DNA of 52,601 nt, from the NCBI GenBank assembly GCA_944389025.1, contig CALXKU010000018.1, positions 1 through 52,601 of the forward strand, in the 5' to 3' direction. Below, in pieces: positions 11,001-52,601 of this stretch; within the stretch, counting starts at the first letter, position 1, and every line of letters begins with the position of its first letter. The notes beneath the pieces are model-generated. The model was given only the letters and a program-made list of their open reading frames with translations, was not told where the DNA came from and did not search any database. The position numbers and the translations under genes were made by a program. This DNA comes from an uncultured Spirochaetaceae bacterium. Lineage in GTDB: Bacteria; Spirochaetota; Spirochaetia; Sphaerochaetales; Sphaerochaetaceae.

Positions 11001-11873
11001 ATGTCAAAGGAATTATCAAACGCATCATATCTTGATTCGGATAACGAGGTGCTTTCCATATATCTAGAGCAGATTAACAAGATTCCCATGCTCAGTTATG
11101 AAGAGGAGTATGAGCTTGCTTTAAAGGCTAAGAATGGGGATAAGAGGGCGTTTGATAGGATCATAAACGCCAATCTCCGTTTCGTTGTCTCGGTCGCTAA
11201 GAAATACAGGGGCCAGGGTCTTCCTCTCTCAGATCTCATTAATGAGGGTAACATAGGGCTTATCACGGCTCTTGAGAAGTTCGAACCGGAGAAGGGCTAT
11301 CACTTCATTTCATATGCTGTATGGTGGATCAGACAGTCGATTATGAAAGCTCTAAGTGAGAAGGCAAGGGCTGTGCGCCTGCCTCTCAACAGGACCAATG
11401 AGCTTATGCAGATTCAGAAGGTACAGAGCGAGATTCTCCATGAGAACGTTGAGGACCCGAATGATCTTGAACTTTTAAGCGAGAGAACCGGCCTCGAGAA
11501 GAATCTTGTAAAGGATCTTCTCTCGATCAGTCAGGATATGGTGAATCTCGACTCATCCATAAAAAGCGATGATGACTCATCCTCCACATTCTCCGAATTC
11601 ATCGAGGATCCGGCTGCAGGACCTGAGGCTGAGGTTGTTGATGAGTCCCTTCGCACAGAGGTTCGCTCTCTTCTTCTTACTCTAAGCGATAAGGAGAGAA
11701 CTATACTTAGCATGCGCTACGGGCTTGACGGACAGAAACCGATGAGTCTTAAGGAAATAGGGCTTGAGTTTGGACTTACTAAAGAAAGGATCAGGCAGAT
11801 AGAGAAGAGAGCTCTTGAGAAGCTGAGAGATAACAGCCAGGGTAGGGCGCTTGAGTGCTACACTGTCGCATGA
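11001..11873 (+). CDS. Short sigma-70-family RNA polymerase sigma factor (group 2, RpoS-like role)
   Basis: This 290-aa sigma factor has region 1.2 (LSIYLEQINKIPMLSYEEE), region 2 with NLRFVVSVAKKYRGQGLPL and the -10-binding segment FISYAVWWIRQSI, a region 3, and region 4.2 with MSLKEIGLEFGLTKERIRQI for -35 recognition. It lacks region 1.1 and the long spacer of a housekeeping RpoD, so it is probably an alternative, group 2 factor. The sigma-54 promoter just upstream recalls the spirochaetal cascade in which an NtrC-type regulator and RpoN drive rpoS. It ends in a strong terminator. I leave the symbol open because the sequence could also be named as an RpoD-family protein. Confidence 0.85.
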   Translation: MSKELSNASYLDSDNEVLSIYLEQINKIPMLSYEEEYELALKAKNGDKRAFDRIINANLRFVVSVAKKYRGQGLPLSDLINEGNIGLITALEKFEPEKGYHFISYAVWWIRQSIMKALSEKARAVRLPLNRTNELMQIQKVQSEILHENVEDPNDLELLSERTGLEKNLVKDLLSISQDMVNLDSSIKSDDDSSSTFSEFIEDPAAGPEAEVVDESLRTEVRSLLLTLSDKERTILSMRYGLDGQKPMSLKEIGLEFGLTKERIRQIEKRALEKLRDNSQGRALECYTVA

Positions 11874-11911: not shown

Positions 11912-12035
11912 CAAAAATGAAACTTCGTTTCAATTTTAATAGATATATTTTTATGGCATAAATAATTAAATAAATTAGGTTGTATTATCCCCCATTAAAT
12001 GGTAATCTTTAAAAAGTTTAAATTCAGAGGTAAAG

Positions 12036-14747
12036 ATGTCTAAAGTTGAAAAAAAGAAGTATGTTTATTTTTTCGGAGGGGGTAAAGCTGAAGGTACAGC
12101 TGATATGAAGGCCCTCCTTGGGGGAAAGGGTGCGAATCTTGCTGATATGACCAGCATAGGGCTTCCTGTACCTCCTGGATTCACGATTACAACGGAAGCA
12201 TGTGCTTTTTTCGATAAGTCAGGTGGTGGCTATCCTGAGGGAATGAAGGATGAGGTTCTTAGTAATCTCAGGAGGCTTGAGGAGCTGCAAGGTGCTAAGC
12301 TCGGGGATAAGGAGAATCCTCTTCTTGTTTCCGTAAGAAGCGGTGCGGCACAGTCGATGCCTGGAATGATGGATACAGTCCTTAACCTTGGTCTTAATCA
12401 GGACAGTCTTGAGGCTCTCGTCAAGAAGACAGGTAACGAGCGTTTCGCATGGGACAGCTATAGGCGTTTCATTCAGATGTTCGGCGATGTCGTTATGGGC
12501 GTCGAGCATGCTAAATTCGAATATATTCTCCAGAGCGTAAAGGATGAGAATGGCATACATTTTGATAACGAGCTCACTGTCGATATGCTCAAAGAGGTTA
12601 TCAAGCGCTATAAGATCATGTACAAGAAGTCTACAGGGGAGGACTTCCCGACAGATCCTGAGTATCAGCTGTTCAAGGCAATAGATGCCGTTTTCAGAAG
12701 CTGGAACAACGAAAGGGCGATTAAGTACAGGATGATGAATGATATCCGCGGTCTTCTCGGAACGGCTGTCAATGTCCAGTGCATGGTATTCGGCAATATG
12801 GGTGAGACGAGCGGCACTGGCGTTGCATTCACACGCGATCCTTCAACAGGTGAGAACAAGTTCTTCGGAGAGTATCTGATGAATGCCCAGGGCGAAGACG
12901 TTGTTGCAGGTATCAGGACGCCTCAGTCAATCGATACCTTGAAGAACGTGAACCCGGATGCGTATGAGCAGCTTGTAAACATCCGCTCTATTCTTGAAAA
13001 GCATTACAAGGACATGCAGGATCTTGAGTTCACAATCCAGGAAGGCAAGCTTTACATGCTTCAGACCAGGAATGGAAAGAGAACTATATTCAGCTGGCTC
13101 AGAAGCCAGGTTGAGATGGTGGAGGAGGGGCTCATCGATAAGAAGACTGCTGTAAGCAGGGTTCCTGCAAGTGAATTCAGTAAGCTCTTTGCTCCGATTC
13201 TTGATAACAAGATCATCCGCGACCTCTCATGCAAGCCGGCGACAACCGGTCTTAACGCAAGCCCGGGAGGTGCCTGTGGTCAGATCTATTTCACAGCAAA
13301 GGATGCCGAGACTGCTGCCGCAGAGGGAAAGGAAGTCCTTCTTGTCCGTGTTGAGACTAGTCCTGAGGATATCGGAGGAATGGCTGTCAGTCAGGGCATT
13401 GTAACATGCCGCGGAGGAATGACGAGTCATGCTGCAGTAGTAGCACGTGGTATGGGTTGCCCATGCGTATCAGGTTGCGGAGAGATTCATGTCGACGAGA
13501 TAAAGAAGACTCTGGAAGTTAACGGTGTTATCCTCTCCGAGGGTGATTACATGGCTATCGATGGATTCACGGGTGCAGTCTATGCACAGAAGATTCCTGT
13601 AAAGCCGAGTGAGATCATGCAGGTTCTCGAGGGAAGCATGAGGGAGTCCGAGTCAATCCTCTTCCAGAACTATAAGAAGTTCATGGGATACGTCAACGAG
13701 TACAAGACAATGGCCGTAAGGACCAATGCAGACACTCCTCAGGATGCCAGACATGCAGTTCAGCTTGGAGCTGAGGGTGTCGGACTTTGCCGCACGGAGC
13801 ACATGTTCTTCGGTGGAAACAGGATTATCAGCATGCGCAAGATGATTCTGGCTAACAATACGAAGGACAGGGAGAGTGCCCTTTCCGAGCTTCTTCCTAT
13901 GCAGAGGGAGGATTTCATGGGCATATTCAAGGCCCTTAACGGACTGCCTGTGACAATCCGTCTTCTCGATCCTCCTCTTCATGAGTTCCTTCCAAACGAC
14001 CATACGAGCCGCCATGAGATGGCTCTTACGATGGGAATCAGCCTTGAGGAGATTGCTCAGAAAATCAACAGCCTTCATGAGTTCAACCCTATGCTTGGTT
14101 TCCGCGGTTGCCGTCTTGCAATCGTATATCCTGAGATTCTAAAGATGCAGGTGAGGGCGATAATAGAAGCGGCAATATTCGTCAAGAGGGAAGGAATCCA
14201 GGTCCATCCGGAGATCATGATTCCACTGGTTGGAATATACAAGGAGTTCAATTTCTGTAAGGAGAAGGCCGTAGAGACGATTGAGGAGGTATTCAGCGAG
14301 CAGGGCATAAGGATCGATTACAAGATCGGTACCATGATCGAGGTTCCTCGTGCGGCCATAACAGCTGATGAGATTGCAAAGCAGGCAGAGTTCTTCTCGT
14401 TCGGAACTAACGACCTGACACAGATGACCTGCGGTTTCAGCCGTGATGATGCAGCATCATTCTTAGGACACTATGTCAACGATCCTGATAAGCAGTTCTA
14501 TGATTACGATCCGTTCGCAACCATAGACTTCGATGGAGTTGGTAAGCTCATAAGGATGGCGGCGGAGCTCGGACGTTCTGTACGCCCGGATATTAAACTC
14601 GGTATCTGCGGTGAGCATGGAGGAGATCCGAAGTCCATCGCATTCTGCCAGTCGATCGGACTCAATTACGTCTCCTGTTCCCCGTTCCGCGTACCTATCG
14701 CAAGGCTTGCGGCGGCACAGGCTGCAATTGCACAGTCTGCCAAATGA
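12036..14747 (+). CDS. ppdK: Pyruvate, phosphate dikinase
   Basis: This 903-aa enzyme interconverts pyruvate, ATP and phosphate with phosphoenolpyruvate, AMP and pyrophosphate, and serves glycolysis or gluconeogenesis in anaerobes. The N-terminal nucleotide-binding domain contains LGGKGANLADM and SVRSGAAQSMPGMMDTVLNL. The central swivelling domain carries the phospho-histidine in GGMTSHAAVVARGMGCPCVSG, and the TIM barrel has EGVGLCRTEHMF and the catalytic cysteine in GICGEHGGDPKSI. Length matches bacterial PPDK. It has its own intergenic region upstream (about 160 bp, AT-rich) and a terminator downstream, so it is probably monocistronic. Confidence 0.97.
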   Translation: MSKVEKKKYVYFFGGGKAEGTADMKALLGGKGANLADMTSIGLPVPPGFTITTEACAFFDKSGGGYPEGMKDEVLSNLRRLEELQGAKLGDKENPLLVSVRSGAAQSMPGMMDTVLNLGLNQDSLEALVKKTGNERFAWDSYRRFIQMFGDVVMGVEHAKFEYILQSVKDENGIHFDNELTVDMLKEVIKRYKIMYKKSTGEDFPTDPEYQLFKAIDAVFRSWNNERAIKYRMMNDIRGLLGTAVNVQCMVFGNMGETSGTGVAFTRDPSTGENKFFGEYLMNAQGEDVVAGIRTPQSIDTLKNVNPDAYEQLVNIRSILEKHYKDMQDLEFTIQEGKLYMLQTRNGKRTIFSWLRSQVEMVEEGLIDKKTAVSRVPASEFSKLFAPILDNKIIRDLSCKPATTGLNASPGGACGQIYFTAKDAETAAAEGKEVLLVRVETSPEDIGGMAVSQGIVTCRGGMTSHAAVVARGMGCPCVSGCGEIHVDEIKKTLEVNGVILSEGDYMAIDGFTGAVYAQKIPVKPSEIMQVLEGSMRESESILFQNYKKFMGYVNEYKTMAVRTNADTPQDARHAVQLGAEGVGLCRTEHMFFGGNRIISMRKMILANNTKDRESALSELLPMQREDFMGIFKALNGLPVTIRLLDPPLHEFLPNDHTSRHEMALTMGISLEEIAQKINSLHEFNPMLGFRGCRLAIVYPEILKMQVRAIIEAAIFVKREGIQVHPEIMIPLVGIYKEFNFCKEKAVETIEEVFSEQGIRIDYKIGTMIEVPRAAITADEIAKQAEFFSFGTNDLTQMTCGFSRDDAASFLGHYVNDPDKQFYDYDPFATIDFDGVGKLIRMAAELGRSVRPDIKLGICGEHGGDPKSIAFCQSIGLNYVSCSPFRVPIARLAAAQAAIAQSAK

Positions 14748-17243: not shown

Positions 17244-17315
17244 GGTTCCTTCGTCTAATGGTTAGGACAGGAGATTCTCAGTCTCTAAATAGGGGTTCGA
17301 TTCCCCTAGGAACTA
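17244..17315 (+). tRNA. tRNA-Glu(CTC), likely prophage insertion site
   Basis: Acceptor GGTTCCT pairs with AGGAACT (one G-T end pair, 17308-17314). The anticodon loop contains CTC at 17278-17280, reading GAG, and the T arm contains GGTTCGATTCC. The prophage integrase gene lies just beyond its 3' end, so this gene is probably the attachment site. The matching repeat at the far prophage end is outside the window. Confidence 0.93.
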
Positions 17316-17326
17316 TAAAGAAAATC

Positions 17327-17362: not shown

Positions 17363-17406
17363 ATTTTCTTAGCTCTGTACCATTTCTGTACCAAATAACT
17401 GCATTT

Positions 17407-18489
17407 TTAAGCTGGTTCTATTTTTATTGAAGTCTCTGCGAGTTTATCCAGCTCCGATACGAGCTCCTCTTCTTTTTCCTTGTACATGTGGGAGTATGTG
17501 CTGAGCGTAATCGTCACATCATCATGGCCTAATCTCTCTGATATCTGTTTCACAGGGATTCCCATGTTGATCAGCAGGGAGGCGTGAGAATGCCTCAGAT
17601 CATGGATTCTTATCGTTTTCACGTGGGCTTTCACGCTGTACCTTTTCAGACACTCCCTGTATTTCGATTCAGAGCGGTCAAAAAGCCTCGTAGACGCGTT
17701 CAGTCCATAAATGTGGGAAGAATACTCCCTTATCTTTTCCATGACGATTCTGGGCATCCTTATCGTTCTGGTGCTCTTTTTCGTTTTTGTACCGTAGATG
17801 TAGGCCGTTCCTTTCACGACGACATAGTTCTTGCTTATCGATACCGTGTTGTTTTGGAAATCGAAATCGGAAAGTGTCAGGGCGCATGCTTCTCCTATGC
17901 GCATCCCCGAATAGAAAAGGAGAAGGAAGAAGGCTTCCTTGTCTATTATACCCGAAATAGCCTGCATGAACCGGTTGAACTCTTCCAGCGTCCAGAATTC
18001 CATTTCCTCGGACTTAGTGCTCTTGATATTTCCTACAACCGTGCAGGGATTCTGTTTCAACCCGTATACCTTTATTGCGAAATTGAAAATTGCCGATAGC
18101 TGCTTGTGTGTCTTTCTGAGGGTTGAGTTCTTATAGGTACCGTTCTTTATCAGTTCCGTTTGCCACTGTCTGATGTCGGCCGGAGTGATCTCATTGATCC
18201 GCTTCTCCCCGAAGTAGGGAATGATTGCGGTTTTGAAATTCGATTCCTTGTTACTTACCGTTGTCGGCTTCATTCTTGCCTGGCAGTCGTCGATATAATA
18301 CAGGAAAAGGGAGTTGAATGTCATATCGCAGTTGTTCTGCTGCTTGTCCAGGAATGCCTTCTCATACTCCTTGGCCTCCCTCTGGGTTTTAAAGCCTGTT
18401 TTCTTATGCTGTTTCGTTTCTCCCTGCCAGTTCTTATAGCGGAACTTGCAAGCCCATGATTGCGTATAGCTGTCCTTGAATACCGCCAT
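17407..18489 (-). CDS. Prophage tyrosine integrase
   Basis: This 360-aa site-specific recombinase integrates and excises the prophage. It has an AP2-like arm-binding N-terminus (SWACKFRYKNWQGETKQHKK), a SAM-like core-binding domain (about 55-160) and a catalytic domain with R197 (YSGMRIGE), H296 and R299 (HDLRHSHA), H322 (RLGHDD) and probable nucleophile Y332 (STYSHMY). The ATG at 18489 follows AAGGAGGTG at ideal spacing; the in-frame GTG nine bases earlier overlaps that site. It points towards tRNA-Glu, the usual layout next to an attachment site. Confidence 0.95.
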   Translation of the reverse strand: MAVFKDSYTQSWACKFRYKNWQGETKQHKKTGFKTQREAKEYEKAFLDKQQNNCDMTFNSLFLYYIDDCQARMKPTTVSNKESNFKTAIIPYFGEKRINEITPADIRQWQTELIKNGTYKNSTLRKTHKQLSAIFNFAIKVYGLKQNPCTVVGNIKSTKSEEMEFWTLEEFNRFMQAISGIIDKEAFFLLLFYSGMRIGEACALTLSDFDFQNNTVSISKNYVVVKGTAYIYGTKTKKSTRTIRMPRIVMEKIREYSSHIYGLNASTRLFDRSESKYRECLKRYSVKAHVKTIRIHDLRHSHASLLINMGIPVKQISERLGHDDVTITLSTYSHMYKEKEEELVSELDKLAETSIKIEPA

Positions 18490-18524
18490 TGTTAACACCT
18501 CCTTCCTGATGCTAGAATATTCAT

Positions 18525-31479: not shown

Positions 31480-33140
31480 GGAGGTACGGACGAAATCTTG
31501 GACTTGAAATCTACAGGTAAGGAGATTGAGTCATGTATTCAGTTGAAGAGAGACAAAAGGCAGTTGACCTTTATCTTAAGTATGGAAGGAATGCAGCGCT
31601 AGCCATAAGGGAGTTGGGCTATCCAAAGCGCCATGCTCTGATGCAATGGGTCAGGGAATATGAAAAGACGGGCAAATTGCATGAGAAGACTGCTGGTCAT
31701 AGAGGGTACAGCGAAAAAGAAAAACGGACAGCTGTCGACTTCTACCTTGAACACGGCAAACAAATCAAATATACGCTGAAGACACTGGGCTATCCAGGAA
31801 GGACAACATTGAAGCTCTGGATAGATGAGCTGGCTCCAGGCAATCGCCGCGTATTCGAAGGCAACTCAACCCAGACCAGATATCCTGATGTGGACAAGGA
31901 GAAAGCTGTTGCCGCACTAATATCTAGGGAAGGTAGCGCAGCACAAGTCGCCAAGGAGTTCGATGTCAGACGCTCAGCCCTTTACAACTGGAAAAAGCAG
32001 CTTGCTAATGATATCACTGTCCCTGATATGGAAAAGAACCAGGACGGCGGAATCAAGGTAGCCGCCATTGAAGAGGCGCAGGAGATCATAAGGCAGTACG
32101 AGGAAAACATAGCTCGTCTCAAGGAAGAGAATGCCGCACTTGACCGCGAGCTGTATAGGAAGCGGATTGAGGTAGCTGTGCTTAAGAAGGCTGCAGAAGT
32201 AGTAAAAAAAGGAGAGGGCATCAGTCTGGAAAAGATGACAAACAAGGAGAAGACACTCGTGATTGATGCCCTACGCAAAGACTTTCCTCTTAAGGACCTT
32301 CTCCATGTAATGTGCATCTCGAAAAGCAGCTACTGCTACAGTCACAATGCACTGTCAAATGATAAGTACAGAGAGCTCAGGGTACAGATATGCCAGGTCT
32401 TCAATGAGAATGATGGCCGCTACGGTTCTCTGCGCATCTGGATGGCCCTCAAGCGCAATGATGTAGTCATTTCAGAGAAGGTTGTCAGACGGATCATGAA
32501 GGAAGAAAAGCTGCGTGTCAGATGCGTCAAGAGAAAGAAGTACAGCTCATACAAGGGTGAGATCTCGCCTGCTGTACCGAACCTCATCAATCGCGATTTC
32601 CATGCTGATAAACCCAACGAAAAGTGGCTTACCGACATCACTGAATTCAGCATACCCGCAGGTAGGGTCTATCTCTCCCCATTGGTCGACTGCTATGATG
32701 GTATGGTTGTATCCTGGACGATAGGGACGAGTCCCAATGCTGAGATGGCTAACAGAATGCTTTCTGCAGGCATAGCGGCTCTGCAAGAAGACGAGCACCC
32801 GATTGTGCACTCCGACAGAGGCTGCCATTACCAGTGGCCAGGCTGGATTGAGCTCATGGAAGAAGCCCAGCTAGTCAGGTCCATGTCCAAGAAAGGATGC
32901 TCTCCTGACAACAGCGCATGTGAGGGCTTCTTCGGAAGAATGAAGAACGAAATGTTCTACAAGAAGGACTGGAGAGGATGGACAATCAATCAATTCATCG
33001 AGGAAGTCGACACATACATTCATTGGTACAACGAAAAGAGGATCAAAATGTCTCTTGGGGGAATGAGCCCTCTTGAGTTCAGAAAAGAAACTTCCAATAA
33101 TTCAGAGGCAGTCTAAGTCCAAAAAAACGTCCGCATCCCC
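31480..33140 (+). mobile_element. IS3-family insertion sequence, 1661 bp
   Basis: Imperfect 26-bp terminal inverted repeats (31480-31505 and 33115-33140, 19 of 26 matching) share CGGACG and TTGGACTT blocks. The element is flanked by AAG direct repeats (31477-31479 and 33141-33143), a 3-bp target duplication typical of IS3 elements. It contains one transposase gene in the same direction as the prophage. Confidence 0.88.
31533..33116 (+). CDS. IS3-family transposase, OrfA and OrfB in one frame
   Basis: This 527-aa transposase holds three N-terminal helix-turn-helix units (about 5-50, 55-105 and 115-160), a leucine-zipper helix (about 175-225), then an HTH_21 segment and the rve catalytic core. 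The DDE residues are D368 (WLTDIT), D428 (HSDRG) and E464 (CEGFFGR), with exact DD(35)E spacing. Most IS3 elements need a -1 frameshift to join OrfA and OrfB; here the protein is a single frame. It has its own ribosome binding site (TAAGGAG). The stop overlaps the right inverted repeat. Confidence 0.93.
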   Translation: MYSVEERQKAVDLYLKYGRNAALAIRELGYPKRHALMQWVREYEKTGKLHEKTAGHRGYSEKEKRTAVDFYLEHGKQIKYTLKTLGYPGRTTLKLWIDELAPGNRRVFEGNSTQTRYPDVDKEKAVAALISREGSAAQVAKEFDVRRSALYNWKKQLANDITVPDMEKNQDGGIKVAAIEEAQEIIRQYEENIARLKEENAALDRELYRKRIEVAVLKKAAEVVKKGEGISLEKMTNKEKTLVIDALRKDFPLKDLLHVMCISKSSYCYSHNALSNDKYRELRVQICQVFNENDGRYGSLRIWMALKRNDVVISEKVVRRIMKEEKLRVRCVKRKKYSSYKGEISPAVPNLINRDFHADKPNEKWLTDITEFSIPAGRVYLSPLVDCYDGMVVSWTIGTSPNAEMANRMLSAGIAALQEDEHPIVHSDRGCHYQWPGWIELMEEAQLVRSMSKKGCSPDNSACEGFFGRMKNEMFYKKDWRGWTINQFIEEVDTYIHWYNEKRIKMSLGGMSPLEFRKETSNNSEAV

Positions 33141-35363: not shown

Positions 35364-35671
35364 TGGCTAAAAAGAAAATCTTGGATATTCCTGAATGGAT
35401 GAGTGATGAAGCTAAAGCTCATTACGAGTGGCTTTTCCCGAAAATTACAAAAGAGAATGATGTTGAGGAGATTGATTACCCTCTTATCTGGGCTGCATGC
35501 GACTACTATGGCCGATTCCTAACATCCGAGAAAGTCGCAGATAAGAAGAACTATCTTTCAGCATATTCGAATCTGCTGGAGAAATTCAAAAGGAAGTTAG
35601 TTGTGATGGAATCTAAAGAGGAAGGTTCTGAGGAGGGGAGAGAAGATGTCATCTCAAAAGCCTTCGAATAG
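35363..35671 (+). CDS. Terminase small subunit (P27 family)
   Basis: This 102-aa protein sits between HNH and TerL. It has the P27-like order of a DIPEWMSDEAKAHYEWLFPK motif followed by a helical core (PLIWAACDYYGRFLTSEK) and an acidic C-terminus. It recognises phage DNA and hands it to TerL. It overlaps TerL by 26 bp. Confidence 0.8.
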   Translation: MAKKKILDIPEWMSDEAKAHYEWLFPKITKENDVEEIDYPLIWAACDYYGRFLTSEKVADKKNYLSAYSNLLEKFKRKLVVMESKEEGSEEGREDVISKAFE

Positions 35672-37364
35672 CAGTACTCTTCAGAACAAAATCCTGAAAT
35701 ACTACAGGGATGCATATGCCAGTTATCGGGACAGCGTATTATGGGGTACCCGTGTATGCTCCACGGCTGAGCGCCAGAAGGTGGAGCGGCAGGAGCGGGA
35801 TATAAAACAGGGAGTATCAGGGTATGAGTTCATATTGGAAGAAGGACTCAAACCTCTCCTTTGGATAACAATGAACCTATGCATCCCTCTTGGTAGGAAG
35901 AGGGGCCAGCCTATGAAGCTTGAGGCTTGGCAGGCATATGATACTATAGTGCTTTTCGGGTGGGTAAAGAAGGATGATCATGCGAGAAGGCGCTTTGTTG
36001 ACGCTTTCTGGGAGATTGCCAGGAAGAATGGAAAGAGCACATTTTCCGCAGCTCTTCTTGATTACCTCATCTTCGGGGAAACTCCTGGAGTGAGAGGCTA
36101 CATAGGAGCAACCACCTTGGAACAGGCCGAAGAGGTTTTCGTCAGGTGTGAGAAGGAGCTGAGCCTAGTAAACAAGGGTGTGAGCGTAGCTAATTCGAAA
36201 AATAACAAGGTGCTCAAATGGAAGGATGGTGTGATAACAGCCATTGCCGGAGAACCAAAGGATGGAAAGCTCGCATACGGCACTGTAATAGATGAGTACC
36301 ATCAGCACAGGGATAACGGGCTCATAAATTCAATCCGATTTGGAAACATCTCTGACCAGCAGTCACTTCTGATCAGGATTACGACAGCGGGTGTCTCCCT
36401 CGGAGGTGTCTGCCATGAGGAGTACAAGAAGTGCAAGAGGGTTCTTTCCGGAGAGCTCGACATACCCCGGTATTTTATATCGATCTATGAGGTGGATGAG
36501 TTCGACTCTCCGGATGATCCTTCCATCTGGCCTAAGGCGAATCCAAACTGGGGAGTCTCTATAGATCCGGATGATTTCAGGGCGAACTACGACAGTTGCA
36601 AGGCAAGTGCTACGGAGATGCTTGAGTTCAAGACCAAGAACCTGAACATGTGGTGCCACAGTCTCAGCCGATGGGCGAACATGCCCGTATGGATGGAGAA
36701 GTGTCAATGGACAGTGAATGAAGATGATCTATTTGGAAAACCCGCCTATGGCGGTCTGGATTTATCATCCATCTCTGATTTTACGGCTTTCACGCTTGAT
36801 TTCCCTCTTGAAGACGGAAGGCACGTACAGATCTCCCACTTCTGGATTCCTGATGCGATGGTGGAAACACTTCTCAGACAGTGCAGGATACCGCTGAGGG
36901 AATGGATTGAAAAGGGCTGGGTTACGGCCACTCCCGGAAACACCATCGATTACAACTACGTAATGGATTATCTCAATGACTGCTACGAGAAATATGAGCT
37001 CTGCTTCATAGCTGCAGATAAGTGGAAGATCAACGAGCTAGTGAACATCATGCCTCCCTGGTTCATCGATGTCGCATACGAGTTTAGCCAGGGGATGAAG
37101 ACGATGAGTCCAACTATCAGGGATTTTGAGAAAGCCTATTTGGAAGGCAAGATTTCGGCAAATGGAAACGAGGTCATCGACTGGATGATGAGCTGTGCGG
37201 AGACATATCAGGATTCAAGTGGCAATGTGAAAATCGTAAAACCCAAACAGAGGACGGAGTCGAGGATAGACGGGGTGATCACATCTATCATGGCGCTTTC
37301 AAACGCCAAGACAAACGACATCAGCTATCTTGGCGATGTCAGTCATATGATAACCGCATGGTAA
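35646..37364 (+). CDS. Terminase large subunit
   Basis: This 572-aa packaging motor has an ATPase domain with Walker A EIARKNGKSTFSAAL (about 124) and Walker B YGTVIDEYHQH (about 214). The C-terminal nuclease domain shows acidic strands GGLDLSSISDFTAF (about 370) and FIAADKWKIN (about 457). It belongs to the Terminase_1, HK97/P27-associated class. It cuts and pumps concatemeric DNA into the prohead through the portal encoded next. Confidence 0.95.
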   Translation: MSSQKPSNSSTLQNKILKYYRDAYASYRDSVLWGTRVCSTAERQKVERQERDIKQGVSGYEFILEEGLKPLLWITMNLCIPLGRKRGQPMKLEAWQAYDTIVLFGWVKKDDHARRRFVDAFWEIARKNGKSTFSAALLDYLIFGETPGVRGYIGATTLEQAEEVFVRCEKELSLVNKGVSVANSKNNKVLKWKDGVITAIAGEPKDGKLAYGTVIDEYHQHRDNGLINSIRFGNISDQQSLLIRITTAGVSLGGVCHEEYKKCKRVLSGELDIPRYFISIYEVDEFDSPDDPSIWPKANPNWGVSIDPDDFRANYDSCKASATEMLEFKTKNLNMWCHSLSRWANMPVWMEKCQWTVNEDDLFGKPAYGGLDLSSISDFTAFTLDFPLEDGRHVQISHFWIPDAMVETLLRQCRIPLREWIEKGWVTATPGNTIDYNYVMDYLNDCYEKYELCFIAADKWKINELVNIMPPWFIDVAYEFSQGMKTMSPTIRDFEKAYLEGKISANGNEVIDWMMSCAETYQDSSGNVKIVKPKQRTESRIDGVITSIMALSNAKTNDISYLGDVSHMITAW

Positions 37365-37373
37365 GGAGAGGAT

Positions 37374-39314
37374 ATGGGAATAATGAGTTTTTTTAAAAGG
37401 AAAGCAGAAAGTATTCAGAACATACTTGTATTAGGCTCAGGGAGAAACTTGATATTCTCCTCATCCGAGTTGTTCAATTCTGCGCTCTGGTCATGCGTGA
37501 TAAACCTTTCAAGGCTTTATGCGACCCTTCCATGGCATGCGTATTCCGAGGACAGGAAAGGGAACAAGCATAAGGAATCGGGGACGCTCCTTTCCGAACT
37601 TCTCAAAAAGCCAAACCCATTCATGACCGATTATGAGTTCCGCTTCGCTATGGGCTACAACTTCGAGATGCACGGTGAGGCTCCGGCAATCATACAGAGG
37701 TCGACAACGGGACGGCCGATAGCGCTCTATCCTGTTTCACCTCATTCACTGGTTGCAAGCTGGGAGGAGGGGAGGCTTTACTATACTCTCGCATTGGATG
37801 GTAAGAGATATCCGGCTTCAGATGTTCTTCTGATAAGGAACACACCTACAGGATACGGTGCGGGTAATGTGCTGGATCCGATATACTACGCAGCTTCGGA
37901 TCTGGAGCTGGAAGAGCACTGCAAACAGCTACAGAAAGAGTATTACAACGGCGCATCCGTTGTTGGAAACATAATATCTGTTCCGTCTAGGACTCCGGAT
38001 GATCAGAAGGACAAGATAAGGCAGCAGTTCAATTCTGCAAAAGGATTCAGGAACTACATTGTTGATGAGAACGTCAAAATCACTCCAATACAGATTCAGA
38101 ACGCAGACATATCTAAGCTTTCTGAAGCACAGAAATGGAATGCATCAGAGGTTGCAAGGCGCTTCAACATTCCGCCTTTTCTCATCGGAGATACCACTGG
38201 TACATATAACAACTCTGAACAGCAGGGGCTGCATATGGTCATCTACTGTCTTCAGCCGAGAGTGACTGCATGGGAGACAGCCCTCAATGCTTCACTCTGC
38301 AACAAAGACCAGTATGTGAAGTTCGCACTTGAAGGACTTATGAGGGGAGATCATGCGACAAGGTCAGCTTATTACCATAACGCAATCATGGACGGTTGGA
38401 TGGATATAAATGAGGTACGTGCAAAAGAAGAGCTTCCGGGAATAGGCCCTGATGGCGATGTCCATTTCTTCCCTATGAACTACGGTTCTCTTGCGGATGT
38501 CGCATCCGGGAAATTCGCCTCTTCCGGAGTCGGACTGGGCGGCATATGGAACGAGCCGGCAGGCAAGAATGAGGCGCAGAAGAAACGTACACTCCGGGAG
38601 GAGAAGAGGGCGCATGATCTGAGATATGTGGCCGAGGCTCAGGCTCCGGCAAAGAGCAACAGGGCTAAGATTGAAGCTCTGATAAGGAAGCAGCTAAAAA
38701 AATCCATAGAACAGCTGAGGGCTCTTATCGCTACAGGTTCTCCGACAAATCAGGTTCTTTCTGATTTCAAGAATTGGCTTGATACGTATGCTGCGGAACT
38801 TCAGCCACAGTACAAGGCCATATATCTCGATATCCTTCAGAAGATGGTTCCAATAGTGAAGGATGAGACGGGAAAGGATGATGAGATTCCTGATGATAAG
38901 CTTGAATCATACGCCTCATCCTATGCAGACGGAGTTGTTGGCCGGGTTTCAGGAACGGTTCAGAGCACAGCCAAGAATTCCATAGATACCGACAATTTCG
39001 ATGACGACATGGACAATCTTGAACAGGACTATCCGATAGATCAGAGCGAGGAGGAGGTCAACAGGAGCAGCAATGCTTTCGCTGTCTTCCTCTTCTCCCA
39101 GCTCCATCTGAGCGTGTTCCATGTCGTAGCGGCATCCAACAGCTGCGAGTTCTGCAGCGCTTTGGATGGTAAGACGGCTTCCGTTGAGGGCTATGTGCTT
39201 AAAAAGGGCTCCGATGTCGATACGGGCGATGGCGGGGTAAGACATATAAACAAGGACTACAGGCATCCACCGTTCCATTCGCACTGCAGATGTTCTGTGG
39301 CTCCGGGAGAGTAG
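37374..39314 (+). CDS. Portal protein fused to a MuF-like minor head domain
   Basis: This 646-aa protein is much longer than a usual HK97 portal (about 400-450 aa). Residues 1-410 follow the HK97 portal pattern (LYATLPWHAY, LLKKPNPFMT, PPFLIGDTTGTYNNSEQQGL). A helical linker follows, and the last 110 residues match the SPP1 gp7/Mu F end: SNSCEFCSALDGKTAS, then HPPFHSHCRCS. The fusion places the minor head protein, which may be packed inside or ejected with DNA, on the portal ring. AAGGAGAGG precedes the start. Confidence 0.9.
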   Translation: MGIMSFFKRKAESIQNILVLGSGRNLIFSSSELFNSALWSCVINLSRLYATLPWHAYSEDRKGNKHKESGTLLSELLKKPNPFMTDYEFRFAMGYNFEMHGEAPAIIQRSTTGRPIALYPVSPHSLVASWEEGRLYYTLALDGKRYPASDVLLIRNTPTGYGAGNVLDPIYYAASDLELEEHCKQLQKEYYNGASVVGNIISVPSRTPDDQKDKIRQQFNSAKGFRNYIVDENVKITPIQIQNADISKLSEAQKWNASEVARRFNIPPFLIGDTTGTYNNSEQQGLHMVIYCLQPRVTAWETALNASLCNKDQYVKFALEGLMRGDHATRSAYYHNAIMDGWMDINEVRAKEELPGIGPDGDVHFFPMNYGSLADVASGKFASSGVGLGGIWNEPAGKNEAQKKRTLREEKRAHDLRYVAEAQAPAKSNRAKIEALIRKQLKKSIEQLRALIATGSPTNQVLSDFKNWLDTYAAELQPQYKAIYLDILQKMVPIVKDETGKDDEIPDDKLESYASSYADGVVGRVSGTVQSTAKNSIDTDNFDDDMDNLEQDYPIDQSEEEVNRSSNAFAVFLFSQLHLSVFHVVAASNSCEFCSALDGKTASVEGYVLKKGSDVDTGDGGVRHINKDYRHPPFHSHCRCSVAPGE

Positions 39315-39932: not shown

Positions 39933-41054
39933 ATGGATAAGAAGACACTTATGGCGATGCTCGCAAAAGTAAAAGCGAAGATTAAGGAGAAGTTCGAGGC
40001 TATGCTTGAGTCCTCGAAGGATGAGGATATCAAGGCGTATGAGAACCTTCTGAAGCAGGCCAAGGACCTTGAGGAGCAGATTGCGCTTGTCGAGAAGGAG
40101 GAGCTTGATGAGGGCGGTACGATTCCAGAAGGTCTTGAAAAAGAGGATAAGAAGCCTAAGGAGCTCTCCGAAAGGGAGAAGTTCGGCCAGAAGATCGTCG
40201 AGGCCGTCTCCAAAGGAACAAGCTTCACAGGCCTCCTTCCAAGGGAATGCACAAGAAACATCCAGATGAAGAAGGAGCAGATTGCAAGGGTTCGTGGCCT
40301 ATGCACAGTGCATCCCGCATCCGGAGAATATACGATTTGGGTTGAAGGCGATGATGTCGTAGTTGACTACATCAATGAAAACGGAGCTTTCGGAGAGACG
40401 ACCCCAAGTATCAACGGTGTAGGGCTTGCGGCTCTAAAGCTTGGCGCACTTACAAAGATCTCCGAGGAGTACATTGCGGATCTCGGTGTTGATGTCATGG
40501 GTTACATCGAAGAGAAGTTTGCGAAGGCTTTCGCCAAGAAGGAGGACAAGGAGATCATCTTCGGTTCCGGAACTTCTTCCTCAAAGACCAAGCTCAGGGG
40601 GGTTGCTGTGAATGCGGCTGCAGCCAATATCGTTACGGCGGCATCTGAGACGACAGTTACATGGGTCGAAGTCAAGCAGACAATCCAGAGGCTCAAGGCA
40701 TATCGTGGAAACGCAACAATAGTATGTTCCCAGGAGTTCCTGGACATCGTGCATGAGTTCAAAGATGGAAACACCTACATGTTCCCTCAGGCTAATGAAA
40801 TCAAGCAGATAATGGGTATTCCTGTAGTTGTATCAGGAGAATTCCCGACTCTCGGATCAGAGGCGGTTGCAATGGTTGTCGGTGATTTCAGCTACTACCA
40901 CATCTGCGACAGGCAGAGTGTCGAAGTCAAGCTTCTTCCGGAGCTTTACGCCGCCAACGGTCAGGTGGGCGTGAGAGGTCAGGAGAGGATTGACGGAGAT
41001 CTGACCGTGAAGGAAGCTTTTGCAGTCCTCAAGATGAAGGAGGCTGCGGCTTGA
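39933..41054 (+). CDS. Major capsid protein (HK97 fold)
   Basis: This 373-aa protein begins with a charged coiled-coil scaffold-like delta domain (1-95, rich in K and E). From about 110 it follows the HK97 capsid pattern (REKFGQKIVEAVSKGTSF, then VWVEGDDVVVDYINENG, LGALTKISEEYIADLG, IMGIPVVVSGEFP). The N-terminal part is probably removed by the protease encoded just upstream. TAAGGAG precedes the ATG. Confidence 0.92.
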   Translation: MDKKTLMAMLAKVKAKIKEKFEAMLESSKDEDIKAYENLLKQAKDLEEQIALVEKEELDEGGTIPEGLEKEDKKPKELSEREKFGQKIVEAVSKGTSFTGLLPRECTRNIQMKKEQIARVRGLCTVHPASGEYTIWVEGDDVVVDYINENGAFGETTPSINGVGLAALKLGALTKISEEYIADLGVDVMGYIEEKFAKAFAKKEDKEIIFGSGTSSSKTKLRGVAVNAAAANIVTAASETTVTWVEVKQTIQRLKAYRGNATIVCSQEFLDIVHEFKDGNTYMFPQANEIKQIMGIPVVVSGEFPTLGSEAVAMVVGDFSYYHICDRQSVEVKLLPELYAANGQVGVRGQERIDGDLTVKEAFAVLKMKEAAA

Positions 41055-43857: not shown

Positions 43858-46149
43858 ATGGCAGGAAATATAACTTTAAAAATATCTTCAGATGTACAGT
43901 CAGCTGTTAACGGTATTAATAGTGTCAATCAGAAGTTGGATCAGTTCAAACAAAAGACAGAGTCAGCTGCTTCAAAACTAACCCAATTTACTGTAGGATT
44001 CAATTCCTTTGCAGATATGGGAAGTAAGGTGGTTTCTGTAATAAGAGCAATTGTTGATGTTGCTACAGAACTAATTAATTCCTATTCTGCGCAGGAGCAG
44101 GCCGAGGTCCGTTTGCAGTCCACGCTGGCTGCAACTCAGCAGGCTTGTGGAATGACCGCTTCAGAACTTTTAAATCTTGCGGATTCCCTCCAAAAGGTAA
44201 CCACCTACAGCGATCAGGAGATTATTGCTGCTGAGCAGGTGCTTGTGGCAACAAGGAAGATTGGCCGGGAGGTCATGCCTGAAGCTACAAAAGCGATTCT
44301 TGATATGGCAGCCGCGACGGGAGAGGATCTCACAGGGGCGGCACAGAGACTCGGTCAGGCTCTTGCAGATCCGGCGGGTGAAATCGAATCCTTGAAGGAA
44401 GCGAACATACAGCTTACGGAAGAACAGGCTGAGAACATAAAGAAAGTCCAGGAACAGAACGGATTGTATGCAGCACAGAAACTGCTTCTGCAGGAGGTGA
44501 AGAACACCTACGGAGGTATCGCTGAGAGTCTGGCTAATACCGATACCGGTAAGCTTGAGAAACTCCAAGACGCTTGGCAGGATTTGAAGGAAGGTCTTGG
44601 AGAGACACTAATGAATTCTCTTGATGGAGTTCTCGATTATACGCTAAGTCTTGTTGAAAGAATTGAAGGTTTCGTGGATGAGCATAATGAGAACACCCGT
44701 TTGGAGAATCTGGGACAGTCCGTAATCTCCGGTAGCAGCAATGTTGATTATAAGCAGTTGTCGGATTCGGAGCTTCAGGCAATACTGGATGCATCCTCTT
44801 ATATTCACTGGACTCAGGAAGCAACAAGACAGCTTCCAGATTTTGAATCAAACAGGGTGAATTACGCATATGCCGGTATAGATGCCGGAGTATTCTCTGA
44901 AACTGATATGAGAGCCGCCTTGGCTGTCCTGGATGAGCTTGAAAGAAGGACAGCTGAAAGGGAATCCGCATCAAGACTGGTTGGCTTTCAGAACCTTTGG
45001 AAAATGCAGGATCTTGCGAGGAACGATTTAGGTATTGCTCCTATAACAGTAGGACAACCTTCTGTTTCCGAAATATTGTCAGCTCCTTTTGGATATTCTT
45101 ATGATAATGCCTTATTCTCATCAGCCGAGCCTTACGCTGAACAGCAGAGGAAGCAGGATGCTTTCAGCGAATACATAAAATCCAACGGCTCTCTTTCAAC
45201 CTCCTATCAGATCGATCAGATAAACCAGCGCATGCTATCTGGATACGATCTCATCAAGCAGGGAGGTCTGAGCGAAGATCAGGTTAAGCAGATAGGAGAA
45301 ATAAATGCGGCACTCTATGAACAGAAGAAAGCCCTTGAGGATGTGTCTGGAGGGGAGGATGACCTCAAGGAGAAGGTCGAGGAGATAGGGCCTGCCATTT
45401 CAGACATAGTTTCGGAGCTCATGACTTTCACCAGCAGCATAAGCGACCTGTTCTCTGCCATGGCTGACAACGCGGAAGCATCACTTTCCAAGATCGAGGA
45501 GAAATGGGATGAGTATTTCTCAGAACTCGATGAGAAGCAGGAGCGGCAGAGAGACAGCCTTAATGCTCTTCTTGCTTCGGGAAACATCTCATATGGCGAT
45601 TATATCGATTCAATGAATGCCATGGATGAGGAGCGAGCCGAGAAGGAAGCTGAAGCCGCAGAGGAGGAAGAGGAAGCGAGGAAGAAGGCAGATCAGCTTA
45701 ACGAGGCGGCATTCATTGCAAACCAAGCGAACGCTATAGCAGGAGCGACGATATCCGGAGCTCAAGCGATCATGAACGTATGGGCTGATTCAACGACTCC
45801 GATCTGGGCGAAAGGAGTCATGACCGGTCTTGTTACCGCAACTACGGCCGCGGAGATTGCTACCATCGCAGCGCAGCAGTATACGCCGCTTGCCGCTGGT
45901 GGAATAGTACAGAGCCCTACAAAGGCGCTCATAGGAGAGGGCGGTTCTCCGGAGATGGTTCTTCCTCTTACGGATTCCAACATGGAGCGTTTCGGAGTCT
46001 CTGGCAAATCGGCGGATAGCGGTGTGATAAACATCATCATAAACATAGGGAACTCATATTCCGGAGAACAGCTCTCCGAGGATGTGTTCAGGGGAATTGA
46101 AAGGGCCCAGAGAACTGGAGCTCTTCCTTCATGGAGGTATACAGCATAA
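43858..46149 (+). CDS. Tail tape measure protein
   Basis: This 763-aa protein sets tail length and enters the tube during DNA ejection. It has long alpha-helical stretches, a conserved early domain (TYSDQEIIAAEQVLVATRKI, ILDMAAATGEDLTGAAQRLG), coiled coils at about 535-630 (EERAEKEAEAAEEEEEARKK), a hydrophobic helix near 640-690 and a C-terminal GGIVQSPTKALIGEGGSPEM motif usual for tape measures. By length it predicts a tail of roughly 110-115 nm, using the rule of about 0.15 nm per residue. Confidence 0.92.
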   Translation: MAGNITLKISSDVQSAVNGINSVNQKLDQFKQKTESAASKLTQFTVGFNSFADMGSKVVSVIRAIVDVATELINSYSAQEQAEVRLQSTLAATQQACGMTASELLNLADSLQKVTTYSDQEIIAAEQVLVATRKIGREVMPEATKAILDMAAATGEDLTGAAQRLGQALADPAGEIESLKEANIQLTEEQAENIKKVQEQNGLYAAQKLLLQEVKNTYGGIAESLANTDTGKLEKLQDAWQDLKEGLGETLMNSLDGVLDYTLSLVERIEGFVDEHNENTRLENLGQSVISGSSNVDYKQLSDSELQAILDASSYIHWTQEATRQLPDFESNRVNYAYAGIDAGVFSETDMRAALAVLDELERRTAERESASRLVGFQNLWKMQDLARNDLGIAPITVGQPSVSEILSAPFGYSYDNALFSSAEPYAEQQRKQDAFSEYIKSNGSLSTSYQIDQINQRMLSGYDLIKQGGLSEDQVKQIGEINAALYEQKKALEDVSGGEDDLKEKVEEIGPAISDIVSELMTFTSSISDLFSAMADNAEASLSKIEEKWDEYFSELDEKQERQRDSLNALLASGNISYGDYIDSMNAMDEERAEKEAEAAEEEEEARKKADQLNEAAFIANQANAIAGATISGAQAIMNVWADSTTPIWAKGVMTGLVTATTAAEIATIAAQQYTPLAAGGIVQSPTKALIGEGGSPEMVLPLTDSNMERFGVSGKSADSGVINIIINIGNSYSGEQLSEDVFRGIERAQRTGALPSWRYTA

Positions 46150-49862: not shown

Positions 49863-51881
49863 ATGGCTGTAAATACTGAAAACATTGTTATAGATGACAT
49901 CCTTACTATGGAAGATAAGCAGAAACCTACTGAAGATCATTCCGTGTTCACTTTCAAGGTGGGCAGTGATGGACGTCCGGAAAAAGGAAGCCAGGGATGG
50001 TATACGATAGGGGAGCTCATCGATGATTTCGGAGAGGAGGCTGTCAATGCCAAGAATGCCGCGGTGTCGGCACAGAAGGCTGCGGAGGCGGCTCAGAGTG
50101 CTGCGGAAAGTGCTAAGAATTCAACCAAGGCCATCTATGATGATGCTGTTGAGCTGAAATCGGAATATGATGCAAAGGTTTCCGAGGATACGACAGCTTT
50201 CAATAATAACTATGATTCTAAAATGCAGGCATTCAACAATAATGCCACGGCCAAGACTAATGAATACAACAGCAATCATTCGACGAAGAAATCAGACTAT
50301 GATAACAATGCACAGGAAAAGCTGAAGGATTACAATGATAATCATACATCCAAGAAAAATGAGTATGATAACAATGCCTCAAGCAAACTAGGAGCATACA
50401 ATAACAACCATACGGAGAAGATGGCCGCATATGATGCTCAGGCATCAGAAGATATGACTGCACTCAATACTCTAAAGACCCAGACCGAGAAAGCAAGGGA
50501 TACCGCGGTATCTGCTCGTGATGCTGCCGTATCAGCCAAGACGGCCGCCGAGACTGCAAGGGGGCAGGCTGAGGATGCAAAAGATGCAGCTGTCTCTGCA
50601 AAAACTGCTACGGAGACTGCTCGTGATGCTGCTAAAAGCGCGCAATCCGCGGCCGCATCTTCTGCCAGTACAGCCTCAACAAAAGCCTCTGAAGCAAGCT
50701 CTTCAGCGTCTGCCGCCCAGAGTGCGAAAACGGCAGCGGAGTCGGCTAAGACAGCCGCTGAAGAAGCAGAGACTGCGTGCCAGAAGCTGGTTGAATCAGT
50801 GGACGCCGAAGGGCTTGGAGAGAGGATGGACTCCATTGAAGCAGATATGGCGAACAAGTCCGATAATGGTCATAAGCATACATCTGCCGATATCACGGAT
50901 TTGCAGGGTAAGCTTGATGCGAAGCTGGATAAGGGTGCTAATGCCGTTTCCGCATCCAAATGGCAGACGGCCAGAAAGATAACGGTATCAGGTGATGTAT
51001 CTGGTAACGTATCGATGGATGGAAGCAAGGATGTATCACTGTCCCTTGCTCATAAGACTTCAGGCGTGACGGCTGGAACATATGGTCCGACTGCCGCGGT
51101 AACGCTTGCTTTCGGTGGTTCAGTGAATGTTCCGAAAGTAACTGTTGATTCAAAAGGTCATGTTACAAGTGCGTCTCATTATGCGATTAAGCTTCCTGCC
51201 GCACCTACGAGTGTATCAGGTAACGCAGGTACAGCCACAAAATTACAGACCAAGAGGACAATAACTCTTGCGGGGGCTGTTGCTGGATCTGCACAGTTTG
51301 ATGGCTCCGCAAATATCACTATAACCGTCACCAACGAGCGCCGCCACTGGCCGGGCGAGATTTTTGCTTTTGCTGGAAAAAGCAATAAGCTACCTGCAAG
51401 AACTCTAGTTTGCAACGGAGGTGCAGTATCCAGAAACACATACAAAGAACTCTTTAATGTTATAGGCACAACATATGGAGCAGGGGACGGTAGTACTACA
51501 TTTAATCTTCCTAACCTGTACGCTTGCAAGAATGATGATGGAACCACTGTAAACAACGGAGTTTTTCTACGCGCCGCGGTTAATGACTCCCAAATCGGAC
51601 AGAAGGAGCAGGACGCTATAAGAGACATTACCGGAACTGTATCAGGAGCAAGTGGCAACAATAAGTATTTAACTAGAGGTAGAGGGTGTTTTACATATTC
51701 TACTAAATATTATAGCGGGGATAATAATATGGGAGGTTTTGGTAACTGGGATTCCCATTATTATCATATTTTTGATGCGAATGCAGATAACAATAATTGG
51801 GGCAATCCAATGAAAGGCCATGCGGTAGGAACCGATATTCATCCTTATTCAATGAGGATCCTATATCTAATTGCTTACTAG
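49863..51881 (+). CDS. Tail fibre with collar domain and exchangeable C-terminus
   Basis: This 672-aa fibre has an N-terminal attachment part (1-60), an alanine-rich coiled coil (60-100), asparagine/tyrosine repeats of about 12 and 24 residues (105-195), and a long alanine/serine coiled coil (205-315). A GHKHTSADITDLQGKL trimerisation-like motif, a shaft, and a Phage Collar domain (497-552, PGEIFAF to TTFNLPNL) follow. At 584-591 it reads QDAIRDITG, the conserved junction also seen in enterobacterial phage fibres. The last 85 residues, ending HPYSMRILYLIAY, are the variable receptor-binding tip. Alternative tips lie downstream. Confidence 0.9.
   Translation: MAVNTENIVIDDILTMEDKQKPTEDHSVFTFKVGSDGRPEKGSQGWYTIGELIDDFGEEAVNAKNAAVSAQKAAEAAQSAAESAKNSTKAIYDDAVELKSEYDAKVSEDTTAFNNNYDSKMQAFNNNATAKTNEYNSNHSTKKSDYDNNAQEKLKDYNDNHTSKKNEYDNNASSKLGAYNNNHTEKMAAYDAQASEDMTALNTLKTQTEKARDTAVSARDAAVSAKTAAETARGQAEDAKDAAVSAKTATETARDAAKSAQSAAASSASTASTKASEASSSASAAQSAKTAAESAKTAAEEAETACQKLVESVDAEGLGERMDSIEADMANKSDNGHKHTSADITDLQGKLDAKLDKGANAVSASKWQTARKITVSGDVSGNVSMDGSKDVSLSLAHKTSGVTAGTYGPTAAVTLAFGGSVNVPKVTVDSKGHVTSASHYAIKLPAAPTSVSGNAGTATKLQTKRTITLAGAVAGSAQFDGSANITITVTNERRHWPGEIFAFAGKSNKLPARTLVCNGGAVSRNTYKELFNVIGTTYGAGDGSTTFNLPNLYACKNDDGTTVNNGVFLRAAVNDSQIGQKEQDAIRDITGTVSGASGNNKYLTRGRGCFTYSTKYYSGDNNMGGFGNWDSHYYHIFDANADNNNWGNPMKGHAVGTDIHPYSMRILYLIAY
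51622..51635 (+). repeat. Crossover site S1 inside the expressed fibre gene
   Basis: GAGACATTACCGGA encodes the RDITG junction. The 16-bp string AAGAGACATTACCGGA is identical to inverted site S4. Confidence 0.75.
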
Positions 51882-51885
51882 ATTT

Positions 51886-51899
51886 GAGACATTACTGGA
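51886..51899 (+). repeat. Crossover site S2, direct
   Basis: GAGACATTACTGGA, one base different from S1, four bases after the fibre stop, opens silent cassette 2. Confidence 0.75.
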
Positions 51900-52121
51900 T
51901 CTCTTACGTTGACAGGAGGTGATAATTCTCTTTTCTGGGGCTCTGGGACAGGAGCCTTCGTAGTAAAAACGAAGAATAATAAGAATTACATAAGGTATTC
52001 GGCTCACGCTCAAACACCACCGATGCAATATGGCTGGGATTTCGCAGCATCAAACGTGATAAAAACTGCTTCCGAGGTAAGGCCATATTCGTTGCATGTC
52101 TTATATCTAATTGCTTATTGA
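51886..52121 (+). other. Silent fibre-tip cassette 2
   Basis: From the site the frame reads DITGSLTLTGGDN through to VRPYSLHVLYLIAY and a TGA stop (77 codons from the first Asp). It has no start codon with a ribosome binding site; a TTG at 51909 is the only candidate. It is a promoterless alternative C-terminus for the fibre gene. Confidence 0.75.
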
Positions 52122-52133
52122 GACATTACTGGA
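52120..52133 (+). repeat. Crossover site S3, direct
   Basis: GAGACATTACTGGA overlaps the TGA stop of cassette 2 and lies 234 bp (78 codons) after S2. Confidence 0.75.
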
Positions 52134-52355
52134 AATCTCAATTTTACAGGGGGCAGTGATTCTCACCCATGGGGAGGTGCATCAGGCGCATTCAAAGCAA
52201 ATAGTAAGACCTATTATAACTTTCTTGGAGGTCAGAAAATAAGCGCAGGGGCTTCCCTTGTTTATTCATGGGATTTTGCTGCTTCCAATGTCGTTAATAC
52301 AGACAATGAAGTTCGTCCTTATTCTATGAAAGTTATGTATCTAATTGCATACTAA
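52120..52355 (+). other. Silent fibre-tip cassette 3
   Basis: The frame reads DITGNLNFTGGSDSHPWGG through to VRPYSMKVMYLIAY and TAA (77 codons). It shares WDFAASNV with cassette 2. It has no start codon or ribosome binding site of its own. Its stop overlaps that of inverted cassette 4 tail to tail. Confidence 0.75.
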
Positions 52356-52600
52356 TAGGCTATCAGATACAAAACACGCATTGTATACGGATGGATATCA
52401 ACTCCATTTGCGTGTCCAGCCATAAGATTGGTTGTTTCATCTCCAGCGTTTGCGTCAAAAGAAATAACAGAATGGTTGTTATAACTCTTTTGCGATCCTC
52501 CCGCATAATTCATATATGGTTTAGTTGTTTCTATTGCGCCAACACGTCCTGTTCCACCTCTTTCCGACTCTAGTTCTTTAGATCGTCCGGTAATGTCTCT
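52352..52600 (-). other. Silent fibre-tip cassette 4, inverted
   Basis: On the minus strand the frame reads RDITGRSKELESERGG through to DIHPYTMRVLYLIAY and TAG at 52,352-52,354. It has the same first and last motifs as the expressed tip but a different middle. Inversion between S1 and S4 would place this tip in frame with the fibre shaft. The window ends one base beyond its start. Confidence 0.75.
52586..52599 (-). repeat. Crossover site S4, inverted
   Basis: The complement is GAGACATTACCGGA, identical to S1, in opposite orientation at the far end of the cassette array. Confidence 0.75.
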
Positions 52601-52601
52601 T

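Follow-up and report, generated by a model that had tools for sequence, protein, structure and literature searches.

The 52,601-nt contig CALXKU010000018.1 of an uncultured Spirochaetaceae bacterium (assembly GCA_944389025.1; contig C18, hereafter the window) ends inside an array of alternative tail-fibre tips, which is very probably the tail-fibre shufflon of a temperate spirochaete phage and by which the phage can probably change the surface molecules that its tail binds. A single Collar-domain fibre gene is cut at AGA|GAC by a short asymmetric site (GAGACATTANNGG), and five tip cassettes, each initiated at a site and closed by a stop, lie between it and a back-pointing tyrosine recombinase. 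In the mechanism we propose, this enzyme would carry out strand exchange inside the 8-base cores of an opposed pair of sites and invert the DNA between them, so bringing a different tip into frame after the constant part of the fibre. The base left of the core sets the reading, with an A at the fibre gene meaning read on and a T at the cassette ends at sites S2 and S3 meaning stop. A chaperone gene rides on the flipping DNA beside cassette 5, so that tip 5 and the chaperone would enter sense with the fibre together. Inversion by the array enzyme, the crossover position and the effect on receptor use or host range are what we infer.

The last kilobase of the window holds the end of the fibre gene with its 85-aa tip, followed by three silent cassettes, of which the first two are direct and the third is inverted. 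The fibre gene (ORF 49863-51881) matches Pfam Collar at 1.3e-17 over residues 498-552, and its constant part, with a phage tail repeat and the Collar domain, occupies 49863-51621 (+). Site S1 (51622-51634, +) is the expression site, whose left flank GCTATAA gives the read-through codon AGA, and it opens cassette 1 (51622-51881, +), the expressed tip. S2 (51886-51898, +, direct) and S3 (52120-52132, +, direct) open the silent direct cassettes 2 (51886-52121, +) and 3 (52120-52355, +); the homologue of cassette 3 in a second array, on contig C31 of the same genome, is inverted and adjoins the recombinase. Cassette 4 (52352-52597, -), silent and inverted, lies tail to tail with cassette 3 and is headed by S4 (52587-52599, -, inverted), 2 bases outside of which the contig stops. 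All four cassettes start at GAGACATTACYGGA (51622+, 51886+, 52120+ and 52599-), run from DITG to YLIAY over 85, 77, 77 and 81 aa, and contain no internal stops. The first-pass annotation of the window had described stops abutting or overlapping the next site, and this is what we see: the GA of the cassette 2 stop TGA is supplied by S3, and the stop of cassette 1 lies 4 bases ahead of S2. At both fibre genes of the genome the base left of the core is an A, giving codon AGA, and the gene is cut at AGA|GAC; at S2 and S3 it is a T, giving an in-frame TGA from site bases. The TGA at S3 is the sole stop of cassette 2, while at S2 a TAG precedes it.

The four exact copies of GAGACATTACYGGA in the window all fall within its final 1000 bases, where base composition predicts about 0.001 copies for the whole window and 40 simulated windows contained none. 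The 2.31-Mb genome holds 11 exact copies, all in two arrays (four on C18, two on contig C6 and five on C31; the last C18 copy and one of the C6 copies are the same place, as the contigs overlap). Five further copies carry one mismatch, two of them in the C31 array and three elsewhere.

The window is the entire contig C18, and its last bases (52525-52601) match the end of C6, reverse-complemented, over exactly 77 bases. Past this overlap, C6 encodes a 194-aa tail-fibre-assembly protein (L002:8435-9019; phrog_105, 7.2e-10), here called the chaperone, then a fifth cassette with its site S5 (L002:8136-8383; 81 aa, inverted, silent), and a tyrosine recombinase (L002:7369-8136). The full order is thus fibre gene and cassettes 1, 2 and 3 pointing forward, then cassette 4, chaperone, cassette 5 and recombinase pointing back, with five cassettes of which four are silent. 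The first-pass annotation had counted four cassettes, one expressed and three silent, which is right for the window and one silent cassette short for the array. It had also predicted that a dedicated recombinase would lie immediately beyond the window, and this was borne out, the stop of the enzyme overlapping the fifth site. Besides the fifth cassette, it had made no mention of the chaperone gene, of a second array or of the Rin precedent discussed below.

The array recombinase has 255 aa, matches Pfam Phage_integrase (tyrosine family) at 1.1e-20 and points toward the fibre gene. It carries R124, K146, H202, R205, H228 and Y237, which we take to be the catalytic residues of a tyrosine recombinase, and its structure model (pLDDT 82) is helical with two domains. 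The G of its TAG stop is common to the fifth site; the recombinase stop overlaps a site in both arrays of the genome, and the recombinase abuts a site in several relatives. The Pfam and NCBIfam models that it matches are those of integrases, XerC/D and integron integrase (the NCBIfam matches fall below the curated cut-off), and the tiling of the cassettes resembles that of integron cassettes, so that the enzyme could mainly integrate and excise, as an integrase or integron-like cassette collector, with inversion as a by-product. We consider this very improbable. The prophage owns a separate integrase beside attL (17407-18498, -; 363 aa) with an arm-binding domain, for which the array enzyme has no Pfam match; the cassettes stand in both orientations, unlike the cassettes of known integrons; and in a tree the enzyme lies with invertases of hsdS genes and of gp53-like tips, away from both prophage integrases, which sit on long branches.

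Plasmid proteins with 34-38% identity over the full length, PsrA included, are among the closest relatives in the matches listed outside the spirochaete arrays, and five of five loci opened (of 260 matching records) adjoin restriction S-subunit genes. The 30-row tree unites the enzymes of collar-type tips (100/99), those of gp53-like tips (97/99) and a third group (95/97) of six hsdS rows, one of them so labelled by eye, with two solitary spirochaete homologues (C19 and G066) and one Bacteroidales protein. Rci and both prophage integrases fall outside these three groups, whose order the tree does not fix; Rci joins the C31 integrase, and the tree program warns of long-branch joining. An invertase homologue of a Bacteroidales genome, RUG436 (L055:7992-8798), lies between divergent genes whose products by eye resemble exported lipoproteins, perhaps a surface-protein switch. 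A homologue in Bacteroides phage BS-TP3 (33%) was rejected as a candidate: its neighbours are genes for replication and packaging, and the 12.8 kb examined carry no fibre annotation.

Recombinase homologues at E 1e-20 occur in 15 of 139 family genomes, a count that takes in the two array types as well as two solitary genes (a search at order level covered the same 139 genomes and gave the same 15 matches). Behind the solitary genes, in G066 (L038:8488-9285) and on C19 of the window genome (L039:8394-9191), no repeated site was found. A pattern-based scan of an 84,980-species collection returned 11 loci at 52% identity or more, the next match being at 34%; ten are labelled spirochaete (Candidatus Ornithospirochaeta, Spirochaetales, Spirochaetaceae) and one Gastranaerophilales, which we suspect to be mis-binned. 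In a collection of viral contigs, searches with the recombinase alone, the fibre end and a two-site DNA pattern gave no relative and no second copy of the phage; a search with a recombinase alignment gave two relatives (33% and 28%). Collar-type loci number 12, in 10 of the 139 genomes, and seven have arrays of 5 to 21 sites. Those on contig C13 of G008 and in G060 show one or two sites and then the contig end (on G008 C13 one site is counted, the second being cut), and in G065 the contig ends inside the recombinase. The largest array, on contig C3 of G008 (L028:70-4946), has 21 sites with core GAGGCATT, is itself cut by a contig end and has no chaperone gap in the part present. Cassette order, which the first-pass annotation had proposed to compare among relatives, does not follow one fixed order.

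In eight arrays, 70 of 71 sites open at least 60 aa in the frame of the fibre, whereas of the 142 readings in other frames 2 reach that length. The one exceptional site, at 11827 in G009, runs into transposase-like frames. Cassettes tile each array with at most one gap, which is the chaperone in the window array and in C31, G074, G045 and G038, transposase-like sequence in G009, and absent from G008 C3. In G009, two frames that by eye resemble pieces of transposase (L027:10415-10978 and 11927-12430) interrupt the array and cut its last cassette. The 8-base core is uniform at all tiled sites of an array and differs between arrays: GAGACATT in arrays of 5, 7, 8 and 12 sites, GAGGCATT in that of 21, GGGACATT in one of 10 and GGAACATT in one of 7, while G060, of which one site is visible, has GAAACATT. 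As the main site patterns fix the core of each array, uniformity was checked separately with a loose pattern. This gave 17 other open-frame look-alikes, 14 within known cassettes and three elsewhere (two on G008 C13 and one in the chaperone gap of G038), none of which extends the tiling. The general site GAGACATTANNGG is 13 bases long and asymmetric, and its profile shows no conserved inverted arms; past the core come A or T, two variable bases (the first being C at 12 of 12 sites of the window genome) and mostly GG. The residues encoded by the site vary between arrays (DITG, GISG, DIYG, NITG) while CATT and GG stay constant, and therefore the constraint is on DNA, not on protein. We infer that the 8-base block would be the region of strand exchange, in which partners must match; identical cores within an array fit a shufflon, because strand exchange needs matching cores. 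In G045, neighbouring cassettes (L031:2578-3083) form a 253-base tandem copy at 84% identity, a cassette duplication. On G008 C13 the recombinase gene is preceded upstream by a tandem repeat of 285 bases whose copies match perfectly (L029:1616-2185).

The second array of the genome, on C31, has a Collar-domain fibre gene, seven cassettes (four direct, three inverted), the identical core, a chaperone gene and an integrase gene upstream. The reading frame of its recombinase homologue is split at a run of eight T (L001:7152-7926), and the intact C6 enzyme might serve this array in trans, the site core being identical. Cassette 3 together with the end of its facing cassette is 87.6% identical to its C31 homologue over 340 bases, and cassette 5 is 81.5% identical to its own over 248 bases. 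Both homologues occupy other places and orientations in C31, the cassette 3 segment being inverted between the arrays. Cassette 5 (L002:8138-8380) and its homologue (L001:6675-6917) have the first half in common and differ after FDANAG, past which each resembles other cassettes, a mosaicism within cassettes.

A sign of movement comes from a sister system. A second family of tail-tip arrays (L036, L037, L040, L041 and L042) has gp53-like tips, recombinases 34-38% identical to the array enzyme and the sites TAGTAGCGGTTA, AATGACGGGTAT and TGAGGGGTAT. In G047 and G067 the recombinases are 37-38% identical to the array enzyme and the site is TAGTAGCGGTTAC; a gp53-like C-terminal tip is matched in Pfam for the G067 fibre (2.3e-14), and the G047 fibre gave no such Pfam match. 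The two loci show a reciprocal exchange: in G047 the recombinase adjoins a tip X and the fibre gene a tip Y, in G067 the recombinase adjoins Y and the fibre gene X, and the switch falls inside TAGTAGCGGTTAC. Identity between the loci is 94% in the recombinase flank, 91% in the fibre gene, 87% in X with its adjacent frame and 90% in Y. Such a swap is what inversion of an expressed tip against a silent one yields, though the two arrays differ in their other cassettes as well.

Could the cassettes instead be a dead or slow reservoir, moved only by homologous recombination and duplication, with the shared start reflecting a conserved protein motif of the fibre junction, DITG or NITG? Such a junction motif does recur in tail fibres, cassettes are mosaic after FDANAG, and the tandem pair of G045 shows duplication. 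We nevertheless hold it to be very improbable: silent cassettes retain the nucleotides of GAGACATT with no start codon seen, and it is the residues that change while CATT and GG stay; a recombinase with catalytic residues abuts the last site; and the switch between G047 and G067 falls at a site.

Contig ends give a second, indirect indication that a shufflon is at work. The outward flank of cassette 4 (CAACAA) shares exactly two bases with the flank of the two fibre expression sites (GCTATAA), and this is where C18 stops; eight other sites share no or one base, and one C31 site has the same flank as the outer side of cassette 4. The break of C18 at this divergence is what we would expect if some reads join a fibre gene to cassette 4, because a 77-mer graph would break there (77-mer behaviour being deduced from the 77-base overlap). 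The G008 C13 and L045 contigs likewise end, by eye, inside a site, and contig ends cut 6 of 10 collar-type loci where 1.75 are expected (P 0.002, in a post hoc statistic with rounded contig counts and assumed 4-kb spans). These patterns are indirect signs of mixed states, though mixed strains could produce them too. That assemblies are fragmented, with contigs ending at sites, would also suit an array stitched together from several strains and held whole by no genome. This we regard as extremely improbable, as arrays run from first to last site within single contigs in C31, G074, G009 and G038, and the same design recurs in the assemblies of other genomes.

Several points weigh against the shufflon reading. 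The swap lies between two species and in the sister system, and the other cassettes of the two loci differ (three sites in G047, five in G067). No inversion was observed directly in the window array, and the contig ends could come from mixed strains instead. The C31 recombinase copy may be inactive, and homologous cassettes of the two arrays are 81-88% identical, with no recent exchange seen between them. Two collar-type recombinase loci, G073 and G010, have no array (both were examined); the G010 match carries two stops. Finally, receptor binding by the tips would rest on their position and the Collar domain, as the tip model is poor: AlphaFold (36 rows) gave a pLDDT of 58, and Foldseek against the PDB returned nothing that reached E <=0.001; entries for the T4 short tail fibre were among the non-significant matches.

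If any two opposed sites may invert, the window array has 48 states, a single inversion sufficing to reach tip 4 or tip 5 and two being needed for tip 2 or tip 3, so that the inversion logic of the first-pass annotation holds in this model. Whenever tip 5 is expressed the chaperone is in sense, and it is never so with tip 3 or tip 4. In phages Mu and P1 the fibre end and the chaperone change in concert. A PHROGs tail-fibre-assembly protein is present in five of five collar-type arrays whose frames were scanned and in two of five gp53-type arrays (G034 and G047b). In the nine arrays having both genes, orientation was assessed by eye, using lists of frames. The chaperone, or the gene in the corresponding position, reads in the direction of the fibre gene in three (G038, G067, G034) and is antisense in six (the window array, C31, G074, G045, G047a and G047b). 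Our guess is that in antisense states the chaperone is made by transcription from the recombinase side. A broader reading is possible, if a little short of probable: invertases related to hsdS shufflers would have been recruited to spirochaete phage fibres at least twice, for Collar and for gp53-like tips, with cores drifting as blocks, some states having a tip without an in-sense chaperone, and two prophages of one cell, alike in site core, that may share one enzyme in trans.

The array belongs to a prophage whose spirochaete setting, proposed in the first-pass annotation, is supported. An attL (17302-17320, +) overlapping the 3' end of a tRNA-Glu gene recurs as 19 identical bases at L002:5485-5503 (attR, near the host side of C6), and a 20-base repeat, perhaps an integrase arm site, lies just inside each end (17376-17395 and L002:5603-5622). 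Because of these two matches, C18 and C6 are taken to carry opposite ends of a single prophage, whose length comes by arithmetic to about 39 kb. Between them the window encodes the terminase large subunit (35646-37364, +), portal protein (37374-39314, +), major head protein (39933-41054, +) and tape measure protein (43858-46149, +). At 31533-33116, between the replication and packaging genes, the prophage encodes a protein of 527 aa that belongs to PHROG family 157, a family with the name transposase.

The first-pass annotation had taken a multi-cassette switch of this kind to be undescribed. That stands at most for spirochaetes: the mechanism is not new and would work like the Rin shufflon of Bifidobacterium prophages, for which inversions seen in reads are reported (Mavrich et al. 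2018, PMC6109161). As described there, Rin likewise has a constant start of a receptor-binding-protein gene with variable C-terminal genes, direct and inverted cassettes, an armless tyrosine recombinase at the far end, and a full-length gene that carries a site internally and a further one at the 3' end. Each Rin cassette is preceded by a short asymmetric site, of 11 bases compared with 13 in the spirochaete array, and the site itself (TTCCCTAACCC) differs from GAGACATTANNGG. In that text, the Rin tips are TP901-1-like and the host actinobacterial, whereas the spirochaete tips are Collar or gp53-like; five full-length genes are possible, fewer than in the larger spirochaete arrays; and the section on Rin makes no mention of a chaperone gene on the flipping DNA, which the spirochaete array has. 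The Rin-like system in prophage clade 1 of Eggerthella lenta (PMC8778435) also has a tyrosine recombinase, downstream of which small variable genes follow in tandem, but these often carry an H-type lectin domain, and the host is again actinobacterial. Mu and P1 with Gin and Cin, and p15B with Min, likewise have alternative tail-fibre ends but use serine recombinases (PMC6109161).

The hsdS invertases of PsrA type are among the closest relatives found, but they act on restriction specificity subunits, whereas the array enzyme adjoins fibre tips and a fibre chaperone, and the collar-tip enzymes form a clade of their own. The R64 shufflon with Rci likewise has several C-terminal cassettes and a tyrosine recombinase; it differs in that it varies the conjugative pilus adhesin PilV, and Rci (383-384 aa) lies far from the array-enzyme clade on a long branch. 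The R64 sites are short and asymmetric. A survey of gene-altering inversions may already include such loci. Among the matches listed in a literature search of titles and abstract starts, no shufflon in a spirochaete phage appeared; a passage of PMC5903667 gives an inversion signal in one of eight Spirochaetes species, with no detail. New as far as searched are therefore the spirochaete hosts, the invertase clade related to the hsdS/PsrA invertases and its own sites, the Collar and gp53-like tips, the chaperone on the flipping DNA and the array size.

The finding takes tail shufflons that use a tyrosine recombinase beyond actinobacterial prophages and into spirochaetes. The related enzyme and site pairs (GAGACATT, GAGGCATT, GGGACATT, GGAACATT and GAAACATT) could be used to test how sites are recognised, where crossover occurs and how deletion between direct sites is avoided, and block-wise drift of the core, if true, would make them a series, formed in nature, of recombinases with their matching sites. 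Finally, that sets of silent tips are kept in frame suggests that these phages are under receptor pressure that is strong and keeps changing.

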